Assembly: GCF_036826855.1 (NCBI RefSeq)
Contig: NZ_CP104578.1
Coordinates: 6,111,501 to 6,175,500 of the forward strand
Reading direction: 5' to 3'
Length of the DNA stretch: 64,000 bases
Origin: Streptomyces sp. SJL17-4
GTDB taxonomy: Bacteria; Actinomycetota; Actinomycetes; Streptomycetales; Streptomycetaceae
The position numbers and the translations under genes were made by a program. The notes under the pieces are model-generated. The model worked only from the letters and a program-made list of their open reading frames with translations, did no database searches and was not told where the DNA came from. Below, piece after piece: positions 6,131 through 41,875 of this stretch (within the stretch, counting starts at the first letter, position 1; every line of letters begins with the position of its first letter).

Positions 6131-7576
6131 TCACGAGAACAGCGCCCGGCCCCACCAGTCGCCCTTGTCCCGGACGCCCGGCGGGATCGCGAACAACGCC
6201 GAACCCACGTGCTGGATGTACTCGTTGAGGACGTCGGCCCGCGCCAGCGAGGTCTGCACCGGGATGAAGCCGGTCCGCACGTCCTTCTGGTACGCCAGGA
6301 AGAACAGCCCGGCCTCCAGGCGGCCGAGGCCGTCCGTGCCGTCGGTGAAGGAGTAGCCGCGGCGCAGGAGCGTCGCCCCGGCGTTGGTGTCCGGGTGGGC
6401 GAGCCGGACGTGGGAGTCCGGCTTCATCGCCTTCAGGAACGGCTCGTCGTGCTCCTTGGCCTTGCCGACGGGCGCGCCCTCGCGCTTGTCGCGGCCGAAG
6501 ATGTCCTCCTGCTCGGCGAGCGGCGTACGGTCCCAGGTCTCGACGTTCATCCGGATCCGGCGGGCGACGAGGTACGAGCCGCCGTCCATCCAGGCGGCCG
6601 GTCCCTCGGCGTCCTTGCCGGAGACCCACACGTGCCGCGCGAGTCCCTCGGTGTCGGTGCCCGCGATGTTGCGGGTGCCGTCCTTGAAGCCGAAGAGGTT
6701 ACGGGGGGTCTGGGCGTCCGGGGTCGTCGAGGACGTCTTGCCGAAGCCCAGCTGCGACCAGCGCACCGCGACCTTGCCGAAGCCGATCCGTGCGAGGTTC
6801 CGGATGGCGTGCACGGCGACCTGGGGGTCGTCCGCGCACGCCTGGACGCAGAGGTCGCCGCCGCTGCGCGCCGGATCCAGGTTGTCGCCCGGGAACTTGG
6901 GAAGCTCCACCAAGGCCCCGGGCTGCTTGTTCTTCAGCCCGAAACGCCCGTCGAAGAGCGAGGGGCCGAAGCCGATCGTGAGGGTGAGACGGGAGGGCTT
7001 GAGGCCGAGGGCCTCGCCGGTGTCGTCCGGCGGCGCCTCCGGGAGACCGCCGTACGCGCCCTCGCCGACCTCGGCACCGGCCGTCATGCGTTCGGCCGCC
7101 CGCGTCCAGTCCTTGAGGAGCTGGACCAGCTCGGCGCGGTCGGTCGTCGTCACGTCGAAGGCCGCGAAGTGCAGCCGGTCCTGGACGGCGGTCGCGATGC
7201 CGGCCTGATGCGGGCCGTGGAAGGGCACGGCCGCGCCGCTGTCGGCGACCGGTACCGGGGTGTCCCCGTCCCGGGCCAGCAGGGCGGCGGCGCCGCCCGC
7301 CACGGCGGCACCGAGCGCGAGCCCGGCACCGCCCAGGGCGATGACCGTACGGCGGGAGGGCGCGGCGGCCCCGGCTGCCGGCGCCGACTCCTGGGCCTCC
7401 CCGGCCGCCGGCGCCGACTCCTGGGTCTCCCCGGCCGCCGGCGCCGACTCCTGGGTCTCCCCGGCCGCCGGCGCCGACTCCTGGGTCTCCCCGGCCGCCG
7501 GCGCCGACTCCTGGGCCTCCTGGGCCACGGGCGCCGACCCCTGGGGCTCCTGGGGCTCCTGGGTCTCCTCGGGCAT
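6131..7576 (-). CDS. efeB: Deferrochelatase/DyP-type haem peroxidase EfeB with repeat-extended Tat signal
   Basis: A 481-residue haem-dependent peroxidase exported by the Tat pathway. The twin-arginine motif SRRTVIALGG lies at about residues 74-83, followed by a hydrophobic alanine/glycine segment. The DyP fold is recognisable from FGPSLFDGRFGL, GDLCVQACADDPQV, GFKDGTRN (the catalytic GxxDG motif, with distal Asp) and a later GSYLVARRIRMNVETWD with FVWRRGYSF-type segment (LLRRGYSFTDG). EfeB supports ferrous iron oxidation for EfeU and may release iron from haem. Odd feature: the first 70 residues are a ten-residue repeat rich in Glu, Gln, Ser, Ala and Pro, encoded by 30-bp DNA repeats, making an unusually long n-region before the Tat motif. 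No alternative start exists inside the repeats. Confidence 0.93.
   Translation of the reverse strand: MPEETQEPQEPQGSAPVAQEAQESAPAAGETQESAPAAGETQESAPAAGETQESAPAAGEAQESAPAAGAAAPSRRTVIALGGAGLALGAAVAGGAAALLARDGDTPVPVADSGAAVPFHGPHQAGIATAVQDRLHFAAFDVTTTDRAELVQLLKDWTRAAERMTAGAEVGEGAYGGLPEAPPDDTGEALGLKPSRLTLTIGFGPSLFDGRFGLKNKQPGALVELPKFPGDNLDPARSGGDLCVQACADDPQVAVHAIRNLARIGFGKVAVRWSQLGFGKTSSTTPDAQTPRNLFGFKDGTRNIAGTDTEGLARHVWVSGKDAEGPAAWMDGGSYLVARRIRMNVETWDRTPLAEQEDIFGRDKREGAPVGKAKEHDEPFLKAMKPDSHVRLAHPDTNAGATLLRRGYSFTDGTDGLGRLEAGLFFLAYQKDVRTGFIPVQTSLARADVLNEYIQHVGSALFAIPPGVRDKGDWWGRALFS
7381..7560. repeat. 30-bp tandem repeats in the 5' end of efeB
   Basis: Four nearly identical 30-bp units begin at 7381, 7411, 7441 and 7471, and two more diverged units occupy 7501-7560. 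Differences among the first four are single c/t changes. On the minus strand each unit encodes ten residues of the type QESAPAAGET, so the reading frame is kept whatever the copy number. Confidence 0.95.
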
Positions 7577-35385: not shown

Positions 35386-35466
35386 GCCGACCGCCGCGAC
35401 TTGTCGGCGCCCGCCGACCGCCGCGACTTGTCGGCGCACGCCGACCGCCGCGACCTGTCGGCTTAC
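35386..35466. repeat. Three 27-bp tandem repeats upstream of the CBS gene
   Basis: Units at 35386, 35413 and 35440, beginning GCCGACCGCCGCGAC and ending with TCGGC plus four bases, differ at three or four positions. Each contains GCCGAC and TTGTCGGC, so every unit can form a small hairpin. Confidence 0.9.
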
Positions 35467-37371: not shown

Positions 37372-37619
37372 GGGCGCAGATCGTAGTGGGCGCGGAGGCT
37401 CTGTGGGCCGAACGGGGTACCACTCGGTACCGACGGGTGGGCGGCGGAGGGGCGAACGGGCACCCGGACGCCGACCTTCCCGCGTTACCTGAGTCACACC
37501 CGAGCAGGCACTATGGGTGTGCAACGTGCGCGAAACCATGTGGTGGGATGCTCAGGTGCCCCCCGATGTGCTCGAGGCGGTGGGAGCAGGCGGCCTGACC
37601 AGCGAGGATGGGTGTGGAA

Positions 37620-38981
37620 ATGGACAAGCAGCAGGAATTTGTGCTCCGTACGCTCGAGGAGCGCGACATCCGCTTCGTACGTCTGTGGTTCACCGACGTG
37701 CTCGGCTTCCTCAAGTCGGTGGCCGTGGCGCCCGCCGAGCTTGAGCAGGCCTTCGACGAGGGCATCGGGTTCGACGGCTCCGCGATCGAGGGCTTCGCCC
37801 GCGTGTACGAGTCGGACATGATCGCCAAGCCGGATCCGGGGACGTTCCAGATCCTGCCGTGGCGGGCCGAGGCGCCGGGGACGGCGCGGATGTTCTGCGA
37901 CATCCTGATGCCGGACGGCTCGCCGTCCTTCGCGGACCCGCGGTACGTCCTGAAGCGGGCGCTGGCCAAGACCTCGGACCTGGGCTTCACCTTCTACACC
38001 CACCCCGAGATCGAGTTCTTCCTCCTCAAGGACAAGCCGCTCGACGGCACCCGCCCCACCCCGGCGGACAACTCGGGGTACTTCGACCACACCCCGCAGA
38101 ACGTGGGCATGGACTTCCGCCGCCAGGCGATCACGATGCTCGAATCGATGGGCATCTCGGTGGAGTTCAGCCACCACGAGGGCGCGCCGGGCCAGCAGGA
38201 GATCGACCTCCGCTACGCCGACGCCCTCTCCACGGCGGACAACATCATGACCTTCCGCCTCGTCATGAAGCAGGTGGCGCTGGAGCAGGGCGTGCAGGCC
38301 ACGTTCATGCCGAAGCCGTTCTCGGACTACCCGGGCTCGGGCATGCACACCCACCTCTCCCTCTTCGAGGGCGACCGGAACGCGTTCTACGAGTCGGGCG
38401 CCGAATACCAACTGTCCAAGGTCGGACGCTCGTTCATCGCGGGCCTGCTGAAGCACGCGGGCGAGATCTCCGCCGTGACGAACCAGTGGGTCAACTCGTA
38501 CAAGCGCATCTGGGGCGGCTCGTCCCGCACGGCGGGCTCGGGCGGCGAGGCTCCCTCGTACATCTGCTGGGGCCACAACAACCGCTCGGCCCTGATCCGC
38601 GTCCCCATGTACAAGCCGGGCAAGACGGGCTCCTCCCGCGTCGAGGTCCGCTCCATCGACTCGGGCGCGAACCCCTACCTCACCTACGCGGTCCTGCTCG
38701 CCGCCGGCCTCAAGGGCATCGAAGAGGGCTACGAACTCCCGGCCGGCGCCGACGACGACGTCTGGGCCCTCTCGGACGCGGAGCGCCGGGCGATGGGCAT
38801 CGAACCGCTCCCGCAGAACCTGGGAGAGGCGATCGCCCTGATGGAGAAGAGCGAACTGGTGGCGGAGACGCTGGGAGAGCACGTCTTCGACTTCTTCCTC
38901 CGCAACAAGAAGCAGGAGTGGGAGGAGTACCGCTCCGAGGTCACCGCCTTCGAGCTCCGCAAGAACCTGCCGGTGCTGTAG
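37620..38981 (+). CDS. glnA2: Glutamine synthetase-like enzyme GlnA2
   Basis: A 453-residue type I glutamine-synthetase-like enzyme. Hallmarks: FDGSAIEGFARVYESDM, PEIEFFLL, MPKPFSDYPGSGMHTHLSL, NRSALIRVP and SIDSGANPYLTYAVLLAAGL. In S. coelicolor the equivalent GlnA2 acts as a gamma-glutamylpolyamine synthetase rather than the main glutamine synthetase. The usual adenylylation motif around Tyr (DLYxLxPEE) is replaced by DDDVWALSDAER, so GlnE is unlikely to modify it. The ATG at 37620 is preferred over that at 37608 because GlnA2 proteins start MDKQQEFVLRTL. The last 33 bp of the gene recur at 41303-41335. Confidence 0.93.
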   Translation: MDKQQEFVLRTLEERDIRFVRLWFTDVLGFLKSVAVAPAELEQAFDEGIGFDGSAIEGFARVYESDMIAKPDPGTFQILPWRAEAPGTARMFCDILMPDGSPSFADPRYVLKRALAKTSDLGFTFYTHPEIEFFLLKDKPLDGTRPTPADNSGYFDHTPQNVGMDFRRQAITMLESMGISVEFSHHEGAPGQQEIDLRYADALSTADNIMTFRLVMKQVALEQGVQATFMPKPFSDYPGSGMHTHLSLFEGDRNAFYESGAEYQLSKVGRSFIAGLLKHAGEISAVTNQWVNSYKRIWGGSSRTAGSGGEAPSYICWGHNNRSALIRVPMYKPGKTGSSRVEVRSIDSGANPYLTYAVLLAAGLKGIEEGYELPAGADDDVWALSDAERRAMGIEPLPQNLGEAIALMEKSELVAETLGEHVFDFFLRNKKQEWEEYRSEVTAFELRKNLPVL

Positions 38982-38985
38982 GGGC
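38953..38985. repeat. Left 33-bp direct repeat (att-like), glnA2 3' end
   Basis: From AGCTCCGCAAGAACCTGCCG through the TAG stop to GGGGC, this 33-bp segment is identical to 41303-41335. It encodes the conserved GlnA2 C-terminus LRKNLPVL, so this copy is native, or a restored gene end after integration. Confidence 0.95.
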
Positions 38986-39403
38986 ACGTCAGAAGCAGTA
39001 CGACCCTGACGCGAGGGTTTGGGCCGGCGGCGGACTGCCGGCGGCCCAGCCCCGTTCCGGTCGCCCTGGGCCGTCTGCGGGCCGTCCGACGTCGAGGGAG
39101 GCCCTGTGCACGCCGTCGACGGTCCGCCGAGCGCGCGCCACCGAGCGCGCCTCCGCAGGTTGCCGCAGCGCTATGCGAAGCTGCCCGCACACCGGACGTC
39201 GGAGGAGCCCGTCCCGCCGACTGCGCGCCGCCGGCGGCGTTCGCAGCTCGCCCTCGTCCGGCACGTCCCCCACCCGTGCCGGATCGGCATGGACCGCTGG
39301 GGGGCCCTGCCCTTAGCCTGACCGTCGTTCGAAGATCAACGTGTCGGGCGGGTCTCCGGAACGCCGCTCGCAGGGGGTGTGCCATGCACGGTAGGGGGAG
39401 CGT
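38986..39403. other. 418-bp leading part of the insertion, no recognised gene
   Basis: Between glnA2 and the PQQ gene. Open frames exist on both strands (for example 39019-39321 plus) but have no RBS, no family resemblance and arginine/proline-rich composition. GGGCCG...CGGCCC around 39028-39054 could be a weak terminator for glnA2. Nothing else is seen. Confidence 0.6.
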
Positions 39404-40765
39404 GTGACGTCAGGCAGAGCAGGGCTCATGAAGGCGCTGGCGGTGATCGGGCTCGTACTTGGGGTGATCGGGTCCATCACCGCCTGGTTCCTGTCATTCG
39501 AGGGGTACCTGCCCGGCGACTCCATGGTGCGGACCTGGGCCACCGCGAAGGACCGGCCCAGCGATGGCAAGGCCAACGGCAGTTGGGTCGTCGGGGACGT
39601 CGCCGTCCGCAGCCGGTTCGATGCGGTGACCGGTTTCGGCATCGCCGACGGGCAGGACGGGAAGAAGCTCTGGGAGTTCGTACCGCCCGGCCGCGCCCAG
39701 ATCTGCGGGAGCGCGCGTCGTGCGGACGAGGGGGTCCTCCTGGTCGCGTACGGCACGGAGAGCAGTGCCACCAGCGGCGGGAGCGGCACGCCCGCCTCGC
39801 CGGGCAAGGGCAAGGGTTGCTCGGCCGTCCTTGCCTTCGACGTGAAGGACGGGCGGGAGCTGTGGAGCGTCCCGCGGACCGTGTCGGACGGCCGGTTCCC
39901 CGGGGACGGATTCCTCGATGCGGAGGGCGGCCTGGCATTGATCCACGACGAACGGACCGAGCAGGAGGTGCGGACGCCGGGTGGCAACCGTTCCCTGCGC
40001 GCCCTCGACCTCCGCACGGGCAAGGCCCGTTGGACGGCGGCCGTTCCCAGCGCGTGCGGGGTGAGGGACACGTTCGTGGGCAAGGAACAGGTCCAGGCTG
40101 TCCTGGCCTGCGGTGGGGAGGACGCGGACGCCCCGGGCTCCGGCAGCGGCGGGGACGTCGAGCTGATGGCGGCGGCCTTCGATCGCGGCACCGGCGCCCT
40201 GAAGTGGAACGTTCCCATCGATGCCCGTCGCCCCGTGTTGAGGGATTCCAGCGTGGTCATCGAGTCGGCCGACCCCTTCGTCCTGAGGGTCGTGCGGTCC
40301 TCGAACGGCAACTCGGGCGAGGCGACGGGCGCGTTCGTCTCCTTCGGCCAGGACGGGCGTCCTCGGTCGAGCATCGAGCTCAGCGGCGACTACGGCCAGA
40401 TCGACGCGGCGGAGGTCGCCGGCGAGCGGATGTACGCGCTGGCGTGGACCTATCACAAGGGACGGCACTACCGGCTGGTCGCCTTCGATCTGAAGACCGG
40501 CGAAGAGGTGTGGAACGACGAGTTGGACGAGCCCGCCGCCGGACTGGCCGTGCGGGGCGACCGGGTCAACGTGCTCTGCGAGTGGTCGACCCAGTCCAGC
40601 GCCATCACCGAGCTGCTCGTGTACGACGCCGGCAACGGTGAGGAACTCGACGAGCGCCATTTCCGTGAGGAAGCGCCCAGCGGCTACTTCTTCGAGCACG
40701 ACGGGCGGATCATCGTCGCCGGGGCGGCTGGCGACCATGCCTTCACCGCGTTCGAGCGCTGGTGA
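39404..40765 (+). CDS. Membrane-anchored PQQ-type beta-propeller protein
   Basis: A 453-residue protein. One N-terminal membrane helix (KALAVIGLVLGVIGSITAWFL) anchors an extracytoplasmic domain with repeated PQQ/WD-like blades: DGKKLWEFVPP, LAFDVKDGRELWSVPR, RALDLRTGKARWTAAV, AAFDRGTGALKWNVPI, VAFDLKTGEEVWNDEL. Such propellers are usually scaffolds or sensor domains; no enzyme motif is seen and it lacks a kinase domain. Start GTG at 39404 with GGGGGAG five bases upstream. It is the only intact gene in the insertion; base composition is slightly less extreme than its neighbours. Function unknown. Confidence 0.85.
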   Translation: MTSGRAGLMKALAVIGLVLGVIGSITAWFLSFEGYLPGDSMVRTWATAKDRPSDGKANGSWVVGDVAVRSRFDAVTGFGIADGQDGKKLWEFVPPGRAQICGSARRADEGVLLVAYGTESSATSGGSGTPASPGKGKGCSAVLAFDVKDGRELWSVPRTVSDGRFPGDGFLDAEGGLALIHDERTEQEVRTPGGNRSLRALDLRTGKARWTAAVPSACGVRDTFVGKEQVQAVLACGGEDADAPGSGSGGDVELMAAAFDRGTGALKWNVPIDARRPVLRDSSVVIESADPFVLRVVRSSNGNSGEATGAFVSFGQDGRPRSSIELSGDYGQIDAAEVAGERMYALAWTYHKGRHYRLVAFDLKTGEEVWNDELDEPAAGLAVRGDRVNVLCEWSTQSSAITELLVYDAGNGEELDERHFREEAPSGYFFEHDGRIIVAGAAGDHAFTAFERW

Positions 40766-40896
40766 GCCGATAGCTGTTTCCTGCCGCAAGACAGGCCGCC
40801 CGGCCGAGGCGCGGGTCGTCGACCTCGACGAGGACGACTGCCGCTGAACTCCAGTTGCCCGGCCGGTCACGGTCCGCCGGCGCGCGGCGGTGCGCC

Positions 40897-41302
40897 GGGC
40901 GGCCGAGCCTTGATACGCCTTGTCCGCCCAACATCTGAGTCCTGCTTCGGTGAGGGCTTCGGTGATCCCGTGCTGTCGCGCGGCGGTCAGGTCGTGAGTC
41001 GAGCCGGGCGGAGCCGGCGAGGCCCAGAGCAGCCGTCCGAACGGATCGGTCAGGACCTGCACGTTCATGCCGTGACGCTTGTGCTTCCCGGAGTAATAGG
41101 GGGTGTCGGCGGCGATGCGGTCGATCGGCAGCAGGGTGCCATCGAGGATGACGAACGCTTCTCCCGGATCGTCCGCATCGCCTCGGCCAGGGACGCGGCG
41201 AGGGTAGACAGGGCCTCGACGGCTTCACGTGTGTAGCGGTAGACGGTCGCGATCCCGATGCCGAACCCGGCGGCCAGTTGGGCGTAGGTGTCACCGCACC
41301 GC
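40897..41302 (-). pseudogene. Truncated, frameshifted IS5-type transposase
   Basis: Read on the minus strand, the first frame gives RCGDTYAQLAAGFGIGIATV and YRYTREAVEALSTLAASLAEA, the HTH part of IS5-family transposases. Near 41160 a one-base deletion changes frame, and the protein continues as FVILDGTLLPIDRIAADTPY, GKHKRHGMNVQVLTDPFGRL, GSTHDLTAARQHGITEALTE and CWADKAYQG, with two catalytic Asp. The part carrying the catalytic Glu is missing after 40897, as is the normal N-terminus beyond the 33-bp repeat. Dead gene. Confidence 0.85.
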
Positions 41303-41335
41303 AGCTCCGCAAGAACCTGCCGGTGCTGTAGGGGC
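41303..41335. repeat. Right 33-bp direct repeat (att-like)
   Basis: Exact copy of 38953-38985, the glnA2 3' end including its stop codon. Read on the minus strand it stays open (LQHRQVLAEL) and runs straight into the transposase frame, so the element and the host sequence are fused here. Confidence 0.95.
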
Positions 41336-41380: not shown

Positions 41381-41875
41381 GTGAAGATCGAATCCGTCGC
41401 CACCGAGCGGCTCCTGCTCCATCCGATGACCGTTGCCGAGGCCGAGCGCGTCGTCGCCCGGGAACCCGGGGCCGGGGAGCTGTGGGAAGAGGGGTATCCC
41501 GGCGACGGGGACGTCCGCTCGGCCACCGGGTTTCTGCGGGGGGTCGCCGAGCGCGGTGACCCGGGGGTGTTCCGGGTGTACGGGATACGGCTCGCGGAGA
41601 CCGGGGTCACCGTCGGGGGGATCGGGTTCCACGGGCCGCCCGACGAGATCGGGGTCGCCACCGTGGGGTACGGGCTCGTGCCTGCCGCGCGCGGCAAGGG
41701 GTACGCCTCCGAGGCGCTTCGGGCGCTCCTCGAGATCGCCCGGCGGGCCGGTATCTCCGGCGTGAAGGGCGACGCCGACCTGGACAATCCGGCGTCCCAT
41801 CGGGTGATGGAGGCCGCCGGGATGCCGTGCGTGGCGGAGGACGAGCAGCTCCGGCACTTCTACGTGGGGTTCTAG
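41381..41875 (+). CDS. GNAT-family N-acetyltransferase
   Basis: A 164-residue acetyltransferase of the RimJ/RimL-like group. ATERLLLHPMTVAEAERVV is the usual start; GVTVGGIGFHGPPDEIGVATVGYGLVPAARGKGYASEALRALLE contains the acetyl-CoA-binding motif (R-G-K-G-Y/A), and NPASHRVMEAAGM is the family's C-terminal motif. GTG start at 41381. It would follow glnA2 directly if the insertion were removed. Substrate unknown. Confidence 0.88.
   Translation: MKIESVATERLLLHPMTVAEAERVVAREPGAGELWEEGYPGDGDVRSATGFLRGVAERGDPGVFRVYGIRLAETGVTVGGIGFHGPPDEIGVATVGYGLVPAARGKGYASEALRALLEIARRAGISGVKGDADLDNPASHRVMEAAGMPCVAEDEQLRHFYVGF

Follow-up and report, generated by a model that had tools for sequence, protein, structure and literature searches.

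The segment between glnA2, a glutamine-synthetase-like gene (37608-38981), and a gene for a GNAT family protein in a 64-kb stretch of DNA from Streptomyces sp. SJL17-4 (hereafter the window) is very probably a decayed tyrosine-integrase element that integrated at the glnA2 3′ end, most likely of the actinomycete integrative and conjugative element (AICE) kind, with its right end cut to 33 bp. It is now a remnant and not an AICE, with no more than a short tail left of the integrase gene. A Pfam scan of the four open reading frames (ORFs) of the segment and its flanks found neither replication nor FtsK/SpoIIIE-type transfer genes. Its left attachment (att) site, attL, is complete by comparison, with the right one, attR, reduced to those 33 bp. 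The initial annotation of the window had suggested site-specific integration into a gene's 3′ end with restoration of the gene, which is supported here by a duplicated core, a match to the left arm of related elements, intact elements at the same site, and relatives in which the site is single-copy.

The element would have integrated site-specifically into the ~88-bp 3′ end of glnA2 by means of its tyrosine integrase, such that its own copy of the gene end rebuilt glnA2 on the left (attL) and the displaced native end was left on the right (attR). Decay would then have removed most of its genes and most of the integrase gene, sparing the left arm (including two putative arm sites), a short integrase tail, and a propeller gene as cargo. 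Finally, an insertion sequence (IS) may have inserted near attR, and a deletion may have fused the IS interior to the core. We infer this order of events, along with conjugation and the role of the 8-bp arm sites.

The repeat and the remnant between its copies

The direct repeat AGCTCCGCAAGAACCTGCCGGTGCTGTAGGGGC occurs at 38953-38985 and, identically over all 33 bp, at 41303-41335 (both on the plus strand), confirming the exact recurrence reported in the initial annotation. Its description there as the last 33 bp of glnA2 is right in that the stop codon is included, but only 29 bp belong to the gene, the other 4 bp lying downstream of the stop. When mismatches are allowed, the repeat extends to 46 bp at 89%, and besides a 30-bp tandem array near 7.4 kb, the window contains no other exact direct repeat of at least 33 bp. 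A propeller gene, a 418-bp stretch (38986-39403), and a broken transposase had been placed between the two copies; all three are present, the propeller gene being borne out by Pfam and the transposase by similarity to IS copies. In the window's own genome the segment is single, with three short partial matches elsewhere, the longest (79%) to its IS part.

On the plus strand, attL is assigned to 38894-38985, comprising the terminal ~88 bp of glnA2 plus a few bases past the stop, a unit that is duplicated in related elements. The inner side of attL, which appears to be the left arm of the element (38984-39095, plus strand), carries a GTCAG box, an inverted repeat, and the integrase tail, the last recognized at about 39060-39095 on the minus strand by alignment with intact integrase genes. 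Within this arm lie two GGGCCGTC sites 11 bp apart (39068-39086, plus strand). They are followed by the PQQ_2/BamB-like propeller gene (39404-40765, plus strand; Pfam), the probable cargo, and by the IS fragment (40907-41304, minus strand), a transposase remnant 91% identical to an IS in CP075613. The GNAT gene (41381-41875, plus strand; Pfam) is taken as the native right neighbor of the site, as it stands behind glnA2 or attR in G288, G015, G317, and other genomes.

The right end has been reworked by loss of DNA. Similarity to plasmid-borne IS copies spans 40907-41304 and includes neither end of the 890-bp repeated unit; therefore, the IS was broken after its arrival. The similarity ends within 2 bp of the right repeat, in agreement with the earlier observation that this repeat adjoins the transposase remnant, and the IS interior meets the core at core position 60 with an overlap of about 2 bp, so that the right arm of the element and the first 59 bp of the right core are gone. 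The GNAT start lies 49 bp past the stop-equivalent of the right copy, compared with 101-222 bp past the stop in relatives, and some spacer has therefore probably been lost too. Excision would, as had been proposed, bring the GNAT gene up behind glnA2, but the resulting junction would not be exactly that of a relative such as G288, where the distance is 116 bp.

Other parts of the window hold two further repeats. The tandem array mentioned above (7377-7520) consists of four near-identical copies of its 30-bp unit and is the longest repeated DNA in the window, and a short direct repeat, GCCGACCGCCGCGACTTGTCGGCG, occurs with 27-bp spacing at 35386-35440.

The glnA2 site across Streptomyces

A survey with window positions 38700-38985 as the query found matches in 388 of 392 Streptomyces genomes, 58 of them with two matches; two candidates were scored per genome in the first survey and 13 in a repeat on the 58. 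A second copy of the glnA2 3′ end is present in 51/392 genomes, the window's included. The copy begins at query positions 194-198 (window 38893-38897), and at exactly 195 in 29 cases, in 43 genomes, where it ends near the stop codon; it begins at 202-241 in the remaining eight, the window standing at 241. The attachment core is thus delimited by comparison to ~88 bp, of which the visible right 33 bp are a truncated copy. Seven of the 58 genomes were left out of the att count: G303 has an unlinked 63-base match, G069 and G159 have longer or poorer duplications, G393 has two full copies, and the matches of G178, G401, and G286 are short and fall in other parts of the query. Both copies lie on one contig and the same strand, with the second downstream at about 0.7 to 26 kb, in 41 of the 51 genomes, and on different contigs in nine; the last, G368, has an inverted copy. 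G225 carries a second, inverted core copy upstream of glnA2, which together with the inverted downstream copy of G368 suggests rearrangement at the site.

Comparison of the glnA2-GNAT junction in related Streptomyces had been put forward as a check. No att-like second copy is found in G288, G242, G286, or G340, where the GNAT gene follows at about 100-135 bp (116, about 135, 101, and 115 bp from the stop, respectively); the spacing in G309 is 222 bp. Where both cores of a genome could be aligned (22 genomes), 77-88 of 88 positions are identical and variants specific to the host are often common to both cores, as in G354, as though the ends of element and host gene had become matched or homogenized. 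A strand-exchange point was sought in the attL/attR mismatches, for which 22 of 29 pairs were usable; several mismatch-free runs emerged, none of them decisive. A search for the core in plasmids gave no match.

Intact elements at this site came to light in a first comparison of 41 genomes, the window's own included. In G015, glnA2 is followed by about 17.4 kb, then by a 92-bp copy of the glnA2 3′ end (97.8% identical to the window), and then by the GNAT gene, and G007 has a 3.3-kb version of the element. The G015 element encodes, on the opposite strand, a tyrosine integrase (Phage_integrase PF00589, E=6.2e-12) whose 3′ end lies 75 bp past the glnA2 stop, together with a GntR-Nudix protein, an AAA ATPase, and a transfer-type protein whose counterpart on a circular 18.4-kb plasmid from Streptomyces, annotated as FtsK, is 72% identical; no PDB entry was found with the transfer-type protein as the query. 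Part of its cargo (L040 3984-5954), an AAA_15/DUF4435 ATPase with a weak, below-cut-off NCBIfam match to an anti-phage ATPase, is possibly a defense gene. In Streptomyces bambusae, an integrase with 77% identity occupies the equivalent position, and the second core copy lies on another contig.

An integrase census covered 44 of the 51 two-copy genomes, G206 being counted through S. bambusae (same contigs and coordinates). Integrase relatives that cover 0.8 or more of the G015 protein lie behind glnA2 in 19/51, within about 100 bp in 17 and about 1 and 2 kb on in G044 and G077; broken or short relatives do so in 10/51, and none was detected behind glnA2 in 15/51, the window included (for G299, 3.7 kb of about 20 kb was covered). 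By these comparisons, a series at the glnA2 site runs from full elements to scars. In G217, G044, G007, and G317, a left-arm-like stretch also lies behind the right core (L083 4202-4294; L095 15770-15839; L042; L123 1455-1506), as if the scar of an older element stood behind a newer one.

The left arm ties the window to these elements. A profile was built, the window being excluded, from the first 130 bp past glnA2 of 18 elements, of which 17 reach an integrase match of 0.8 or more and one, G064, has 0.68; common to these left arms are a CAGGTCAG-like box, an inverted repeat, and the final codons of the integrase. In nhmmer searches the profile matches the window at 38984-39095 with E=5.9e-14 and Streptomyces noursei with E=7.2e-21, gives no match at eight close-relative loci (G288, G325, G309, G336, G242, G203, G118, and G161), and gives very weak matches in G286 (E 0.02) and G340 (E 0.007). 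Matches of varying strength in G180, G267, G323, G346, G403, G404, G059, G116, and G004 behave as old scars would.

Within the arm, the GGGCCGTC pair stands at +87/+98 past the glnA2 stop in 23 of 41 two-copy genomes (27 when ±1 is allowed, with one more at +75), and at +87 in 2 of 39 single-copy genomes, S. noursei, S. bambusae, and the window. On the other side of the elements, GGGCCGTC is found at -123 (±1) relative to the right core in 20/26, with a second octamer 11 bp on in 16 of these 20; in six cases the right-core start was adjusted manually by 1-3 bp. The 64-kb window contains a single such pair, and 100 shuffles contained none. The GGGCCGTC sites have the appearance of arm-type sites for the integrase.

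Origin of the propeller gene and competing explanations

The propeller gene is rare, being found in 8/392 genomes (the window's included) at E≤1e-60, with the other seven copies at 43-73%. A closer homolog occurs in S. noursei, from another collection, whose protein is 86% identical and whose gene lies directly behind glnA2, collinear with window positions 37580 to 40784 at about 90%. At four-fold degenerate sites the two propeller genes agree at 84% (198/235), compared with 62% for glnA2 and 61, 53, and 62% for three neighbors; therefore, the propeller gene crossed lineages after those genes parted, into the same attachment site. The gene is absent from 18 close-relative loci and from G004, and in most of the close-relative loci glnA2 is followed by the GNAT gene. 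Taken by itself, S. noursei would point to glnA2-propeller as the ancestral order; this was rejected on the ground of these loci and because the window copy is too similar to that of S. noursei for vertical descent. On this comparative evidence the propeller gene is horizontally acquired, and its vehicle may have been a full element, an integrase-less passenger, or homologous recombination.

Several observations weigh against a decayed element of the AICE kind. The window has no complete attR and, as the initial annotation stated, no integrase gene, although that statement overlooked the integrase tail. The tail, in turn, is seen by profile and alignment only, its length being insufficient for direct detection, with no Pfam match to the overlapping ORF and no tblastn match from an intact integrase. 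A left-arm match is lacking in two of the two-copy genomes, G172 and G249, and the GGGCCGTC pair is absent in 13/41 two-copy genomes. S. noursei, with the propeller gene behind glnA2, has neither a second core nor a DNA match to the GNAT gene of the window. The AICE label itself, most likely as it is, rests on relatives and not on the window segment, and in the G015 element the transfer protein has no Pfam match and reaches 29 bits against an NCBIfam TraB cut-off of 800, while no replication protein was identified, the candidate being a P-loop protein that has no Pfam or NCBIfam match.

An explanation that agrees on the attachment site, but not on the way the cargo arrived, is that the propeller unit came as an integrase-less, att-flanked passenger (cis-mobilizable, CIME-like), moved into glnA2 by the integrase of another element instead of decaying in place. 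We consider this unlikely, though deserving of some weight: S. noursei has in common with the window the left arm, the adjoining stretch (84% over 38986-39403), and the propeller gene, which 18 close-relative loci and G004 lack and which has diverged less than its neighbors; however, in none of the strains seen does the unit lie between two complete cores, S. noursei having a single core, and the right end of the segment here is truncated. A broader proposal, which is possible but which we hold doubtful on balance, is that the glnA2 3′ end is a genus-wide hotspot for AICE-like elements whose integrases would read the core and direct GGGCCGTC pairs in both arms, one of the pairs falling within the final codons of the integrase; that the window holds an att-flanked passenger whose rare propeller gene travels between species into the same site without an integrase of its own; and that occupied hosts would make GlnA2 with an element-supplied C-terminus.

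Alternatively, a donor with glnA2, the left-arm scar, and the propeller gene may have undergone homologous recombination through glnA2 while its right end joined illegitimately within the IS, leaving the right 33 bp as the remainder of the resident glnA2 end. S. noursei shows that such a donor arrangement exists, and the right junction, with its overlap of about 2 bp, is illegitimate. This account is nevertheless improbable, given that the left and right copies are identical in all 33 bp, including the bases past the stop, yet differ from the S. noursei copy, and that glnA2 is no closer to S. noursei than its neighbors are (62% versus 53-62% at four-fold sites), being nearer to G004 (80%). Least credible of all is a target duplication by the IS or a chance duplication through short-homology recombination, the latter having been one of the alternatives offered in the initial annotation. 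The IS fragment does abut the right copy, but the IS lacks both ends, on which ground its target duplication was rejected, and either event would leave the left arm, the fixed-position sites, and the common core boundary in 43/392 genomes unexplained. A phage origin was also dismissed, as there is no phage DNA match and the integrases from phages and viral contigs among the matches listed are 25-31% identical.

Relation to known elements and significance

The decayed tyrosine-integrase element favored here would have left a scar of a familiar type at a site that has drawn little notice. Choufa et al. 2022 (PMC9513070) describe decayed AICEs between direct repeats in a Streptomyces population, with 14 insertions in protein-coding genes. 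The likeness lies in the protein-gene site and in the occurrence of the empty site, the full AICE, and remnants with truncated integrase, cargo, and flanking direct repeats at one site; the difference is that the site there is a glycosyltransferase gene, whereas here it is glnA2 with an IS-truncated right end. According to Ghinet et al. 2011 (PMC3218068), AICEs likewise have the integrase beside one attachment site, a gene 3′ end as target, and direct repeats; however, most tyrosine-integrase AICEs, the pSLS integrase subfamily excepted, sit in tRNA genes, unlike the protein gene glnA2. No report of a glnA2 attachment site was found by title in the literature searched, which mostly excluded subscription journals, and the site may be among the 14 protein-gene sites of Choufa et al.; PMC11755657, in its accessible text, concerns nitrogen metabolism and vectors. 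The circular plasmid of Streptomyces sp. NBC_00562 (NZ_CP107792.1; L079, 1-18451; 18.4 kb) resembles the G015 element in its integrase (61%) and FtsK-annotated transfer protein (72%), but has no glnA2 core and encodes a YfjI-family protein unlike the G015 P-loop protein; it is perhaps an excised element with another target site.

Read in this way, the 33-bp repeat becomes a readable history, and it marks a protein-gene attachment site that is occupied or scarred in about one in eight sampled Streptomyces genomes (51/392). If the integrase works as proposed, the site would offer a target for integration vectors and a testable arm-site layout, as well as a natural series from intact element to faint scar in which decay and cargo retention may be studied.

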